Shown here piece after piece: positions 31,463 through 36,622 of a stretch of 51,545 nt of DNA. The stretch's first letter is position 1, and every line of letters starts with the position of its first letter. Made by a program: the position numbers and the translations under genes. Under the pieces are notes generated by a model that worked only from the letters and a program-made list of their open reading frames with translations, did not search any database and had not been told where the DNA came from. Source of the stretch: Humidesulfovibrio sp. (GTDB lineage: Bacteria; Desulfobacterota; Desulfovibrionia; Desulfovibrionales; Desulfovibrionaceae); the NCBI RefSeq assembly GCF_030689645.1, contig NZ_JAUYFU010000034.1, positions 1-51,545 of the forward strand, given 5' to 3'.

Positions 31463-32083
31463 ATGAACATGCTGCTTTCAGACGGAAAATACATCAAGCC
31501 CAGCAAAGAGACCAGGGTGCTGGCCATTCTGGACTCGCTGTCCCAGGACTCGGCGCTGTCCCAGTTTGAACTGGGCAGACGGCTCAAGCTCAGCGGAGCC
31601 ATGGTCAACCAGTACCTGAAGCTCCTGCAGGAACAGAACCTCATAGAGTACCGGCCGGTGAACGGCAAAAGCTACCGCTACGTGCTTACCAGCGGCGGCG
31701 AGAAAAGCCGCAGGCAGATGTTCAGCGACTATTCGAGCGAAACCATCCGCCTTTACACCAACATCAAGGACTTCATCATCTCCAAGTTGAAGAGCCTGGA
31801 GGTTCGGGGGCGCAAGAAGATCGCCTTGTTCGGGGCCTCCGAAACCTGCGAAGTTGTGCTTTCCGCACTGCGCGACACCGGCTTCCATGTGGTGGCCGTG
31901 GTGGACAACGATGTGGAAAAGCACGGCGCGCTGTTCCACGGCTACGTTATTTCTTCGCCTCTGGTGCTTGAGCATGTGGATTGCCAAGCCGTGGTCATCA
32001 CCTCTTTTGGCCGCCAGGACGAAATTCATCAGCAACTGCAGCCTGTCTCCGCCAAGAGAGGGCTCGAGACCGTGAGGTTGTGA
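31463..32083 (+). CDS. Winged-helix and Rossmann-fold protein
   Basis: This 206-aa protein has two parts. Residues about 15-75 are a MarR/Lrp-like winged helix (SQFELGRRLKLSGAMVNQYL, KLLQEQNLIEYRPVNGKSYR). From about residue 115 a nucleotide-binding fold follows: GRKKIALFGASETCEVVLSA, FHVVAVVDND and a later AVVITSFGRQDEI. The Rossmann part resembles the N-terminal sensor of sugar acyltransferases and CoA-binding redox sensors. ATG codons at 31463 and 31469 are both possible. It lies 2 nt before a sialic-acid-type synthase gene, so it probably regulates glycan synthesis according to a nucleotide or sugar signal (inference). Confidence 0.7.
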   Translation: MNMLLSDGKYIKPSKETRVLAILDSLSQDSALSQFELGRRLKLSGAMVNQYLKLLQEQNLIEYRPVNGKSYRYVLTSGGEKSRRQMFSDYSSETIRLYTNIKDFIISKLKSLEVRGRKKIALFGASETCEVVLSALRDTGFHVVAVVDNDVEKHGALFHGYVISSPLVLEHVDCQAVVITSFGRQDEIHQQLQPVSAKRGLETVRL

Positions 32084-32085
32084 GC

Positions 32086-33180
32086 ATGGCGCACGTCACC
32101 TCCATTACGCTTTCCTCCGGCCAGAAGATTGGCCAAGGACAGCCCTGCTTCATTGTGGCCGAGGTGGGCAACAACCACCAGGGCGACATGGCGCAGGCCC
32201 GGCTCATGGTCCAAGAGGCCGCCAAGGCCGGGGTCCAGGCCGTGAAGTTTCAGAAACGGCACATGGAATCCCTGCTGACCCGCGCCGGGCGCGAGGCCCC
32301 GTACACCGGGGCCAACAGCTTCGGCCCCACCTACGGCGCGCATCGCATGGCGCTGGAGCTTTCCGCCGAGGAAATGGCCGAGCTCAAGACCCTGGCCGAA
32401 TCCCTGGGCCTGGTGTTCTTTGCTTCGGCCTGGGATGAAGTGAGCCTTGAGGAGATGCTGGCCCTGGACATGCAGGTCATCAAGATCTGCTCCGCCGACG
32501 TGGTCAACGTGCCTCTGGTGCGCAAGGTGGCCGACAGCGGCCTGCCGGTGATCCTCTCCACGGGAATGAGCAGCCTGGAGGAAGTGGACACCGCAGTGAA
32601 CATCATCCGCGCCCGCCACGACAATCTGGTGCTCCTGCATTGCAACAGCTCCTATCCCTGCGTGGAGGACCAGATCGGCCTGCCGGTGATGGATTCCCTG
32701 CGCGAGCGTTACAATCTTCCGGTGGGCTACTCCGGGCACGAGCGCGGCCTGGCCCCCAGCGTAGCCTCTGTGGCCCTGGGCGCCTGCGTTGTGGAACGCC
32801 ACTTCACCTTGGATAAGAGCCAGGTTGGGACCGACCACAAGGCGTCTCTTGAGCCTGCGGAGCTGGCCCTGCTGGTGCGCATGATCCGCGAGGTGGAAGC
32901 CTGCATGATCCTGAAGGGCAAGAAGGTCTTCCCGGAAGAGCAGGCCGCGGCCAAGAAGCTGCGCAAGTGCATGGTCTTCTCGCGCGATCTGCCCGCCGGG
33001 CACGTTTTGACCCCGGCGGACCTGACCACCCGGAGTCCCCTGGACGGCATCTCCCCGGTGCACTGGGATGAAGTGCTGGGCGCGGCGCTTGTGCGCAGCG
33101 TGAAGCATGAAGAGCCCCTGCAATGGGAATACCTGGCCCTGCCAGGAAGCCAGAACAGTGCTGCCTCGCTTTCCACCTAG
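32086..33180 (+). CDS. NeuB-family sialic-acid-type synthase
   Basis: This 364-aa enzyme of the N-acetylneuraminate synthase family condenses phosphoenolpyruvate with a hexosamine to form a nine-carbon acidic sugar. Conserved sequence includes FIVAEVGNNHQGDMAQARLM, VQAVKFQKR, SADVVNVPLVRKVA, VILSTGMSSLEEVD, LLHCNSSYPC and VGYSGHERGLAPSVASVALG. A C-terminal SAF-like domain starts at about residue 300 (RKCMVFSRDLPAGHVLTPAD). Neu5Ac, legionaminic or pseudaminic acid precursors are all possible. The other genes of such pathways are not next to it. It is followed by cheV, which hints at flagellin or surface glycosylation, but the gap allows separate transcription. Confidence 0.82.
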   Translation: MAHVTSITLSSGQKIGQGQPCFIVAEVGNNHQGDMAQARLMVQEAAKAGVQAVKFQKRHMESLLTRAGREAPYTGANSFGPTYGAHRMALELSAEEMAELKTLAESLGLVFFASAWDEVSLEEMLALDMQVIKICSADVVNVPLVRKVADSGLPVILSTGMSSLEEVDTAVNIIRARHDNLVLLHCNSSYPCVEDQIGLPVMDSLRERYNLPVGYSGHERGLAPSVASVALGACVVERHFTLDKSQVGTDHKASLEPAELALLVRMIREVEACMILKGKKVFPEEQAAAKKLRKCMVFSRDLPAGHVLTPADLTTRSPLDGISPVHWDEVLGAALVRSVKHEEPLQWEYLALPGSQNSAASLST

Positions 33181-33228
33181 CGAACCGGGCGGACGCTGCG
33201 GCAACGGCCACACCTGGGACGGTGAAGC

Positions 33229-34182
33229 ATGAATCAGACCAACATTCTGCTGGAAACCGGCACCAACGAGCTTGAGATCATCGAGCTCTTCATTACCGAG
33301 AGGGGCGCGGACGGAGCAAACGTCAACGCCTTTTTTGGCGTCAACGTGGCCAAGGTGCTGGAGATCATCGAAGCTCCAGAGTACCTGGAGCCCGCCACCT
33401 CGGCGGAGCATCCCAGCTATCTCGGCGTCATTCCCCTGCGCGACATGGTCCTGCCCGTGGTTGATCTTGCCGTGTGGCTGGGCGTGGATCGCGTTGAGAA
33501 TCATCACGAGCCCATCCTGGTGACGGAGTTCAACGGCGTGCGCACCGGCTTCCTTGTGTCCGGCGTGACCATGATCCACCGCGTGAGCTGGAGCGACGTG
33601 GAGCCGCCCAGCCGCTACCTTTCCGATCTGCCCGGCAACTGCATCACCGGCACCGTGCGCCTGGGCGAGCACTTTGCGCTTCTGCTCGACCTGGAGCGCG
33701 CCCTGGTGGAGCTGAACGCCCTGGACACCACCGAGCCCGAGCACGCGCCAGTTCCCGCCACCGATTCGCCCCTGCGCGTGCTGCTGGTGGACGACTCCAC
33801 TTCGGTGCGTTTTCTTTTGCGCCGCAACTTCGAGGGCGCCGGGTTCACCGTTGACGTGAAGAACAACGGCGAGGACGCCTGGAACCATCTGCTGGCCCTG
33901 AAGGCCGAGGCTGCCAAAACCAACACCCCCCTGACGCAGCTTCTGGACGCCGTTGTCTCCGATGTGGAGATGCCGCGCATGGACGGCTACACTCTGACCA
34001 AGAACATCAAGACCGACAAAGATTTGAGCGCGCTGCCTGTGATCCTCTTCTCCTCGCTCATCTCCCAGGGACTGCTGCACAAGGGCCAGAGCGTTGGGGC
34101 CGACGCCCAGATAACCAAGCCGGAATTCGGCGGCCTCACCAACCAGGTGCGCGAAATGATTCTGGAGCGCCGGGCGCGATAG
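33229..34182 (+). CDS. cheV: CheV-type chemotaxis coupling protein
   Basis: This 317-aa cytoplasmic protein joins an N-terminal CheW domain (about 15-165) to a C-terminal CheY-like receiver. The CheW part shows NAFFGVNVAKVLEIIE and YLGVIPLRDMVLPVVDLAVW. The receiver starts LRVLLVDDSTSVRFLL (acidic pair Asp188-Asp189) and has the phospho-accepting Asp245 in VVSDVEMPRMDGY. The conserved Thr/Ser region reads VILFSSL and the lysine lies in AQITKPE. CheV couples receptors to CheA and aids adaptation. The gene starts 48 nt after neuB. Confidence 0.92.
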   Translation: MNQTNILLETGTNELEIIELFITERGADGANVNAFFGVNVAKVLEIIEAPEYLEPATSAEHPSYLGVIPLRDMVLPVVDLAVWLGVDRVENHHEPILVTEFNGVRTGFLVSGVTMIHRVSWSDVEPPSRYLSDLPGNCITGTVRLGEHFALLLDLERALVELNALDTTEPEHAPVPATDSPLRVLLVDDSTSVRFLLRRNFEGAGFTVDVKNNGEDAWNHLLALKAEAAKTNTPLTQLLDAVVSDVEMPRMDGYTLTKNIKTDKDLSALPVILFSSLISQGLLHKGQSVGADAQITKPEFGGLTNQVREMILERRAR

Positions 34183-34277
34183 TTTTTAAAGCCCTTGGGA
34201 GGGGCTTGACCTCCTGCGCGATTTGGGCGTAAGCAACAAAACAGTCAATAACCCCGCAACCTGCGAGCCCATACGAA

Positions 34278-34385
34278 ATGAACCGAATCGCCGCCGCATC
34301 CGCCCTGGCCCTAGCCGCCCTGGCCTCCTGCGCCGACGTTCGCGTCGTCGTAGTAGTAGGCGTAGTAGGCGACAGCGCGTCGTAG
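34278..34385 (+). CDS. ilvBN leader peptide (35 aa, valine-rich)
   Basis: This short frame starts at ATG 34278 and stops with TAG at 34383-34385. It encodes an Ala/Leu-rich first half, then [10 protein letters not shown]: eight valines in ten codons (residues 21-30). A strong terminator hairpin follows about 30 nt later and ilvB begins 145 nt after the stop. The E. coli ilvB leader also has a Val run and works by ribosome-mediated attenuation. Here the same role is inferred from composition and position. I could not define a clear antiterminator pairing by eye. Confidence 0.8.
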
Positions 34386-34413
34386 CGGGCAGGATTCTTC
34401 TTACAGGAAACCC

Positions 34414-34447
34414 AAACCCCCGCCGGCGCGAGTCGGCGGGGGTTTTT
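34414..34447 (+). terminator. ilvBN attenuator terminator
   Basis: A 12-bp stem if the A/T pairs are counted (34414-34425 with 34434-34445; GC core of 9 bp, 8-nt loop) is followed by a run of T to 34447. It lies between the valine-rich leader peptide and ilvB and would stop transcription when valyl-tRNA is plentiful. Confidence 0.85.
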
Positions 34448-34530
34448 CGTTCTCCCGGTCCACACGGGCCGCCCCAAGGGGAGAACCAAGCCAGCCGACC
34501 GCGCTCAGGGGCACCTTCAGGAGGTGTCTC

Positions 34531-36300
34531 ATGCAGACCAAACCACAGGCGAAACCGATCACCATGTCGGGCGCGGAACTCACCATCCGCCTGCTTGAGC
34601 GGCAGGGCATCGACATCATCCCCGGCATCCCGGGCGGGGCCAACCTGCCCCTGTACGACGCGCTTTCCAAAAGCACGATCATCCGCCACGTGCTGGCCCG
34701 CCACGAGCAGGGCGCAGGTTTCATGGCCCAGGGCATGGCTCGCACCACGGGCAGTCCGGCAGTATTTTTCGCCACTTCCGGTCCGGGCGCCACCAACACC
34801 CTCACGGCCATCGCCGACGCCAAGCTCGATTCCGTGCCCATAATCTGCATCACCGGGCAGGTGCCCAGCAGCATGATCGGCACCGACGCCTTCCAGGAGG
34901 TGGACATCTACGGCATGTCCATCCCGGTGACCAAACACAATTTCCTGGTGCGCAGCGTGGAAGATCTGCTGCGCGTCATTCCGGAGGCCTTCCGCATCGC
35001 GTCCTCTGGTCGGCCCGGCCCGGTGCTGGTGGACATTCCCAAGGATGTGCAGACCGCGCGCATCGAGATCACCGAGCTCCCGGAGCCTGGCGGCCCGGAC
35101 CCGGTAGAGGCCCCGGACCAGGAGTCCCTTGGCCTGGCCGCGCGAATGCTGGCCGAGAGCCGTCGGCCCATATTGATGCTGGGCGGCGGAGTGGCGGCAT
35201 CGGGAGCGGCAAACGTGGCCCGCGCCTTTGCTGAGGCCGCCAGCCTGCCTGTGACCATGTCGCTGCTCGGCCTTGGCATATTGCCCGATGCCCACCCCCT
35301 GAATCTGGGCATGCTGGGCATGCACGGCACGCGGGCGGCCAATATCCTGATGCACGAGTGCGATCTGCTCATGGTTGCGGGCGCGCGACTGGACGACCGC
35401 GCCACGGGCCGCCTGGAGCAGTTCTGCCCGGGCGCCAAGCTGCTGCACCTGGACATCGACCAGAGCGAGCTGGACAAGCTCAAGGCCACGCATCTGGCCA
35501 TCCGGGCGGATGTGGGCGCGGCGCTTGCGGCTCTCATGCCCTTGGTTGGCGTGCAGAAGAGCTGTGCAGACAGGGCGGGTTGGCTTGAGCGCGTGGCCTT
35601 TTGCAAGGTCGAGAATCCGCAGGAGCTGCCCGGCGCAGGAAATCCGCTGACGCCCTATGGGCTGGTGCGCTGCACTGGCGAGATTCTGGGCGACGGGGCC
35701 ATTGTCGCCACGGACGTGGGCCAGCATCAGATGCGCGCGGCCCAGGCGTACCCGGACCTGAAGCCCCGGGCCTGGCTGACCTCCGGCGGGCTGGGCACCA
35801 TGGGCTTCGGCCTGCCCACGGCCATCGGCGCGGCCCTGGCCAATCCGGGCAGGCGCGTGGTCTGCTTCACAGGCGACGGCTCCCTGCAGATGAACATTCA
35901 GGAACTGGCCACGGCGGCGGAAACCGGGGCCAATGTCACCATCGTGCTGGCGGACAACGGAGGCCTGGGACTGGTGCAGCAGCAGCAGGACCTGTTTTAC
36001 GGGCGGCGCATCTTTGCCTCAACCTATCGGAACCACATAGACTTCATCAAGATTGCCGAGGGATTCGGCGTTCGCGCCGTGGAACTCTCCGAGAGCCGCG
36101 ACCCGATGGCCGCCCTTGAGCGCGCCCTGAAGTGCGAGGGGCCGTGCCTGGTGCGCGTGCCTGTGCAGGCGGCGGAAAACGTGTATCCCATGGTGCCCCC
36201 GGGCGGCGCCAACACCGACATGATCTGCCAGGACGCCCCGGCGGCCTGCGAAGCCAGCAAAGGCGGCAATGCCAAAGATGGAGGACGGACACATGCCTAA
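34531..36300 (+). CDS. ilvB: Acetolactate synthase large subunit
   Basis: This 589-aa thiamine-diphosphate and FAD enzyme makes 2-acetolactate or 2-aceto-2-hydroxybutyrate, the first common step to valine, leucine and isoleucine. The catalytic glutamate region is [19 protein letters not shown], and [18 protein letters not shown] follows. The ThDP/Mg2+ motif is [20 protein letters not shown], continuing to [26 protein letters not shown] precedes the ATG. The stop overlaps the start of ilvN by 8 nt. Expression is probably set by the attenuator upstream. Confidence 0.95.
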
Positions 36301-36622
36301 GAATGAACAGAACCTCATGGCCCTGCGGCTCACCGTGAACAACCACCCTGGCGTCATGACCCACGTGTGCGGGCTGTTTGCGCGCCGGGCCTTCAACGTC
36401 GAGGGCATTCTGTGTACTCCACAGGAGGACGGCACCACCAGCCGCATCTGGCTGGTGGTCAAGCGCGACGAGCGGCTGGAGCAGATGATCCGCCAGGTGC
36501 GCAAGCTGTACGATGTGCTTGAGGTGCTGGCCTTCGAGGCCGATGCCACGGCCCTTGCGCGCATGGACGCCTGCATGGAGGGCTGGGAGGCCGCCGGTCC
36601 GTGCGCGGAGTCAGCGGCGTAG
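36293..36622 (+). CDS. ilvN: Acetolactate synthase small (regulatory) subunit
   Basis: This 109-aa regulatory subunit has a single ACT domain: [20 protein letters not shown] and [17 protein letters not shown]. It binds valine for feedback inhibition and raises IlvB activity. GGAGG inside the ilvB end precedes the ATG at 36293. It lacks the long C-terminal domain of IlvH-type subunits, matching the short IlvN type of E. coli ALS I. Confidence 0.9.

Follow-up and report, generated by a model that had tools for sequence, protein, structure and literature searches.

The closest described system to the locus studied here is the leader of the ivbL-ilvBN operon of E. coli, and the available part of PMC6127279 states that, with leucine and valine plentiful, IvbL reduces the expression of ilvBN. 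Leaders of ilvB have also been described in Actinobacteria, in which, according to the available passages of PMC1262725, a short branched-chain-rich frame overlaps a candidate terminator before ilvB, as at our locus; the same passages call the mode of regulation unclear and report that codon changes in the Streptomyces coelicolor ilvB leader were without effect, and the likeness to these leaders is drawn from their description. The attenuator of the E. coli leu operon, the rare-codon example in the available part of PMC1183508, is likewise ribosome-mediated and uses rare control codons. It serves another amino acid and another operon, and is likened to our locus by description only. The rare control codon of the leu leader is CTA. 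Among the open-access matches listed, no title named an ilvB attenuator for Desulfovibrio or Rhodocyclales, by which we claim no absence from print, and the main text of PMC2965389 contains neither "ilv" nor "Desulfo".

We analyzed a 51,545-nucleotide stretch of DNA from Humidesulfovibrio sp. (hereafter, the window), in which a Val-rich leader frame precedes ilvBN (Table 1). As in E. coli ivbL-ilvBN, the leader ends a few codons past its Val run, segment 2 of the attenuator lies on the last codons and the stop, the terminator reads CCCCGCCGGCGC...GGCGGGG followed by T, the sequence of the stop region is common to both, the genes downstream belong to the same family, and CTA Leu codons (two in E. 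coli, one in the window) stand upstream of the Val run. The initial annotation of this DNA had proposed the attenuator logic of E. coli ilvB, and the likeness extends to the terminator sequence and the gene family. The two leaders differ in their Val codons (GTG 5 and GTC 4 in ivbL; GTA 5, GTC 2, and GTT 1 in the window), and their N-terminal halves, from different phyla, are unlike by eye. A conserved leader frame and two conserved, overlapping helices, linked to ilvB as described below, indicate that the leader region is very probably an attenuator of the E. coli ivbL-ilvBN type, in which a translating ribosome controls transcription.

Table 1. Features of the ilvBN leader region and the genes that follow it (positions in the window)
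Feature	Position	Strand	Basis
Candidate promoter: TTGACC (-35, 34206-34211), 18 nt, TAAGCA (weak -10, 34230-34235)	34206..34235	+	
Leader peptide, 35 codons	34278..34385	+	ORF listing; relatives with leaders at the same place
Rare CTA codon for Leu (codon 12), retained by 13 of the 14 genus leaders	34311..34313	+	
Val control codons, residues 21-30: GTT CGC GTC GTC GTA GTA GTA GGC GTA GTA	34338..34367	+	
Possible segment 1 (protector), could pair with 34378-34390	34360..34371	+	RNAalifold, 14 genus leaders
Segment 2, 5' arm of the antiterminator (CGCGUCG-UA-GCGGG), overlapping the final Ala/Ser codons and the stop (TAG)	34376..34389	+	
Segment 3, 3' arm of the antiterminator (CCCGCCGGCGCG), which also lies within the terminator 5' arm and loop	34419..34430	+	
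Predicted intrinsic terminator (segments 3:4); T run 34443-34447	34414..34447	+	Scan and conservation
ilvB, acetolactate synthase large subunit, AHAS I type	34531..36300	+	NCBIfam PRK08155, 917.4 bits vs cut-off 870; tree
ilvN, acetolactate synthase small subunit; start ATG 36269, 36278, or 36293	36269..36622	+	ORF; NCBIfam PRK08178

The leader is a short frame rich in codons for the end product, valine, which occupies eight of residues 21-30, as the initial annotation had read it, and it ends at a TAG codon (34383-34385). The run is the sole one of its kind: a six-frame scan of the window returned four overlapping stretches with at least seven Val per ten stop-free codons, all of them in the leader Val run, and no second place with seven Val in ten. 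Upstream of the frame, CTTGAC is invariant among the 12 aligned of the 14 genus leaders; a consensus scan returned no promoter at threshold, and the -10 element is therefore unsure. The ribosome site at the leader start is weak and of the GAG type, as judged by eye. Immediately before the start codon, a conserved element, CCGCAACCTGCGAG (34250-34277), could form a tiny hairpin.

Both genes downstream exceed the cut-offs of PRK08155 and PRK08178, which we take to be the NCBIfam models of E. coli IlvB and IlvN, and the first reading of the locus as ilvBN holds. IlvN scored 145.5 bits against a cut-off of 128 on residues translated from 36308. The pair is of the AHAS I type, and E. coli IlvB groups with that of the window in the tree described below. 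In a search of a plasmid collection, the best five records (Enterobacter, E. coli, and Klebsiella, some of them chromosome-sized) showed 58.8-60.5% identity to IlvB. On the same strand upstream (31981-34182) are genes for a NeuB/PseI-like synthase, which scores below the NCBIfam cut-offs, and a CheV-like protein with CheW and receiver domains.

Between the leader and the first gene lies the predicted intrinsic terminator, with a stem at 34414-34445 of 14 pairs and a loop of 4 bases, in agreement with the strong stem and T run noted at the outset. The fold of 34270-34450 had a z score of -2.06, equalled by 5 of 200 shuffles. In the surrounding 461-base region, two terminator-like sites were found against 0.8 expected by chance, so the stem alone is no argument, and its place and conservation carry the case. 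The same chance expectation would suit a plain terminator, for instance of the CheW-receiver gene (33229-34182), which has the same orientation and stops 231 bases upstream of the stem, with the Val-rich frame a product of chance in GC-rich DNA; some plain terminators in relatives also match the last third of the covariance model described below.

The conservation of the leader was examined in 64 loci, which comprise the 61 of 79 with an IlvB identity of at least 56% (L031-L088, L099, L106, and L109), the window (L001), one whole-genome relative (L003), and E. coli K-12 (L110). The likely Desulfovibrio of the initial annotation narrows to one genus within Desulfovibrionaceae, twelve of whose loci come from named records (3 of them labelled Humidesulfovibrio, 2 Desulfovibrio, and 1 Desulfocurvus). 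A Val-rich leader, a stem, and a T run precede ilvB in 63 of these 64 AHAS-I-type loci, which span Desulfovibrionaceae, Rhodocyclales, others, and E. coli ivbL, as found by a search that picks the most Val-rich frame before the terminator pattern and is thus biased towards finding one. The sole miss, L085, is a fragment whose match begins at IlvB residue 85. A minimum distance in the terminator pattern removes early false matches in L003, L032, L086, and L109, the terminator of L040 was found only with a widened pattern, and the weakest leaders (L051-L053 and L075) contain 4 Val in 12 codons. The initial annotation had made its case depend on the Val run being conserved in related ilvB leaders, and it is.

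Among the whole-genome AHAS-I loci (L001-L019, overlapping with the 64), 18 of 19 carried at least 6 Val in 12 codons and L019 carried 4. The counts were at most 4 for 11 fetched housekeeping-type ilvB loci used as controls (L020-L030, of which ten are from the order and one is from the family), at most 4 for the 18 excluded loci with 38-46% IlvB identity, mostly from Paenibacillus, and 2 upstream of the genome's own second ilvB, a paralog. In a midpoint-rooted tree of 79 of the 82 candidate rows (L088, L099, and L109 were left out for their short length), the 65 leader-bearing rows, including E. coli, formed one group with a support of 100 versus the 14 rows of housekeeping and Bacillota sequences. 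Given the length of several terminal branches, the internal branching order is uncertain. Within the Desulfovibrio part of this tree fall the ilvB genes of two MAGs labelled Betaproteobacteria (L043 and L048), which reflects either gene transfer or a wrong label.

A covariance model built from the 63 leaders was searched in 395 genomes of the phylum, and 45 genomes gave matches at E <= 0.001, those in the genus of the window by construction. In the 21 genomes whose best match reached at least 37 bits, the match stood right before ilvB in 19, before ilvD in one, and at a contig end in one (L130). Among the 30 matched loci that were fetched, all 19 with ilvB come from these 21 genomes, and none of the nine weaker fetched matches had ilvB downstream. 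A second match in one genome (G315, 34 bits) was rejected as a plain terminator with no ilv gene.

These results largely contradict a plain terminator with a chance frame: the Val run before ilvB is conserved across phyla, the distance from the leader stop to the stem end stays within 46 to 62 nt across the 63 leaders, and the strong model matches precede ilvB or ilvD. We therefore regard that explanation as very improbable.

Two further arrangements were seen in this survey. The leader before ilvD (L124, G115:C182:13945-14080) is of the same kind, MNRDVHSPNTMLPIRLALLGVGVGVRVLDAAVP; its gene has ilvD (dihydroxy-acid dehydratase, NCBIfam) as best family, below the cut-offs, and is cut by the fetched stretch. 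Two Val/Leu-rich leaders, MEHYSTNLQSVVLQLLVVVVNRMPSAG and MKQLLVLVLMVVLVVVVPPGRDCPWD, stand in tandem before ilvB in L190 (G169:C36:31000-34200, reverse strand; also L131). Both have a terminator of their own and a possible antiterminator, and the arrangement is present in 1 of 24 genomes of the family of G169.

Folding for mutually exclusive stems located the antiterminator that the initial annotation could not define by eye. It lies near the leader stop, where 34376-34382 pair with 34424-34430 and 34385-34389 with 34419-34423, leaving the stop-codon bases 34383-34384 bulged. Because it and the terminator both use the 5' arm and loop of the terminator (segment 3), the two helices are mutually exclusive. 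Essentially this switch was returned by RNAalifold for the 14 genus leaders, which folded into the antiterminator when segment 4 was omitted and into the terminator on the whole leader. The same switch was obtained with fewer pairs for all 63 leaders, and part of the antiterminator was recovered for 24 Rhodocyclales-type leaders.

Across the 63 leaders, 92.7% of the terminator cells were paired, with 7 pairs showing two-sided changes. None of 500 shuffles reached the covariation on four of the five measures; on the fifth, the number of pair types, 26 did. For the antiterminator, 87.0% of the cells were paired versus 35-54% with slid partners, a share reached by 3 of 500 shuffles. The covariation of segments 2 and 3 was no better than that of shuffled columns, the four other measures being reached by 101, 119, 194, and 260 of 500, and is weak because segment 3 hardly varies. 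The segment 2/3 duplex of the window has an energy of -23.0 kcal/mol; of 300 plain shuffles made of segment 2, 5 reached this value. Counted by hand, segment 2 beats 95% of its own shuffles (<=15 of 300) in only 29 of the 63 leaders, with Aromatoleum-type leaders among those that fall short, and the native duplexes (mean -21.2 kcal/mol) are only slightly better than cross-species ones (-19.5 kcal/mol).

The effect of ribosome position was calculated by masking the bases covered, in an equilibrium model that lacks kinetics and includes some bases 5' of the likely transcript. With 29 bases masked at the stop codon, the antiterminator was lost (0.0 expected pairs in the window; mean of 0.22 for the 63 leaders), whereas with the ribosome in the middle of the Val run it stayed (10.7 and 6.33, respectively). 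The stalled state gave more 2:3 pairs than the stop state in 55 of the 63 leaders, and at least 8 expected pairs in only 29. With no ribosome, the 2:3 helix still formed (10.7 in the window; mean of 5.41), and stalling exceeded this state in 43 of 63. Because the helix forms almost as well with no ribosome as with a stalled one, termination driven by a protector helix when translation is absent is unsupported. The pairing of 34360-34371 with 34378-34390, the possible protector, is present in the 14-leader genus consensus and absent from the all-63 set. Another candidate, the pairing of 34327-34338 with segment 2, was discarded since it is absent from the RNAalifold consensus.

The Ala/Leu-rich N-terminal half of the leader peptide resembles, by eye, a short membrane or signal segment, as would suit a leader that acts as a small protein; alternatively, its translation might be coupled to that of ilvB, with no part in attenuation for either. 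The N-terminal half, however, varies in length and sequence between clades, whereas the Val run, the end of the frame, and the hairpins are kept, and 145 bases and the terminator separate the leader stop from ilvB. We consider it highly unlikely that the leader works in either of these ways.

The attenuator leaders are marked by their choice of Val codon. In the 63 leaders, GTA accounts for 269 of 472 Val codons, versus 58 of 2440 in their ilvB genes; the ilvB counts cover up to the first 533 codons per gene, with codons past the break in the broken ilvB of L109 possibly out of frame, and no probability is given since the sequences are related. The difference was seen in the genus (43/103 in leaders vs 4/439 in ilvB), in the 32 Rhodocyclales-like leaders (175/242 vs 28/1373), and in the other loci (51/127 vs 26/628), and the GTA share was higher in the leader than in ilvB at 59 of the 63 loci. 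The four remaining loci include those of E. coli, Desulfobulbaceae, and Desulfuromonas, whose leaders lack GTA; in this device, Val is encoded almost exclusively by GTG and GTC in E. coli, two Desulfobulbaceae, and a Desulfuromonas. Other A-ending codons number 25 of 329 in the genus leaders (13 of them CTA) versus 230 of 6850 in ilvB, 32 of 662 versus 773 of 15533 in the Rhodocyclales-like set, and 60 of 395 versus 672 of 8296 in the other loci, which indicates some general rise of A-ending codons outside the Rhodocyclales-like set.

For leucine, CTA appears a single time in each of 13 of the 14 genus leaders, at 21 to 28 codons upstream of the stop; their ilvB genes have no CTA among 833 Leu codons. 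In the remaining 17 leaders, among them E. coli with its two, CTA makes up 14 of 48 Leu codons versus 4 of 941 in ilvB; in the 32 Rhodocyclales-like leaders it is 1 of 94. The assembly lists one tRNA gene each for Val with anticodons UAC, GAC, and CAC and one for Leu with UAG, a set that is probably incomplete because no isoleucine tRNA with its own anticodon is listed.

The GTA codons and the kept CTA codon suggest that valine and leucine are sensed via particular tRNAs. The leader could then be a two-input, isoacceptor-specific sensor, reading tRNA-Val(UAC) through the rare GTA codons and tRNA-Leu(UAG) through the one kept CTA, a reading that we put forward tentatively, at rather less than even confidence. 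We hold to a similar degree, as a possible account, that the attenuator is real and the codons are kept for RNA pairing or for some reason other than tRNA supply. By eye, several genus leaders show complementarity of the CCUA/UAGG type between the CTA codon and the Val run, and the E. coli leader shows CUACUACC/GGUGGUGG complementarity. Pairing of this sort is at odds with the Rhodocyclales-like leaders, in which GTA is abundant but CTA is nearly absent. In addition, when GTA was replaced in silico by GTG, GTC, or GTT in 62 leaders, the native antiterminator was better in 11, 11, and 7 and worse in 15, 17, and 18, respectively; folding as the reason for the GTA codons is thus unsupported, as synonymous swaps cause no consistent weakening of the antiterminator.

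Supply is itself a matter of more than rarity. In the available passages of PMC1183508, leaders are said to prefer codons whose translation responds most sensitively to supply, rarity alone is called an oversimplified reason, and leaders that use major codons are named. Under the selective-charging theory set out there, an isoacceptor with a high concentration and low codon usage stays charged, so that rarity does not by itself make a codon sensitive, which weakens the simple rare-codon argument and favours reasons other than supply. GTA would be sensitive only if tRNA-Val(UAC) were scarce or also served the much-used GTG.

From the anatomy of the attenuator we infer leader translation, stalling, termination, and a response to valine. 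RNA polymerase would start upstream of 34278, with a ribosome translating the leader behind it. When charged tRNA-Val is ample, the ribosome would reach the TAG codon and cover segment 2, so that segments 3 and 4 pair and transcription terminates at the T run. Under a shortage of charged tRNA-Val, it would halt in the Val run, leaving segment 2 free to pair with segment 3; the terminator would then be blocked and ilvBN transcribed. As a possible refinement, the kept CTA may add leucine sensing, and the GTA codons may make the sensor depend on tRNA-Val(UAC).

Overall, anatomy and comparison support the ilvBN leader as a very probable additional member of the ilvB-type attenuators, ordinary in its predicted mechanism and unusual in its choice of rare codons. 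The ivbL-type attenuator, together with its terminator sequence, would thereby extend from E. coli to Desulfobacterota, as a property of the AHAS I gene group. Rfam at its gathering score gave no match in the window, and only istR and a tRNA on the E. coli ivbL stretch and six further loci; a family could be built from the 63-leader alignment. If the two-input reading is true, a codon choice has been fixed in lineages of two phyla. The 63 leaders offer natural variants for testing, outside E. coli, the theory of selective tRNA charging of Elf and co-workers, as presented in the available part of PMC1183508.
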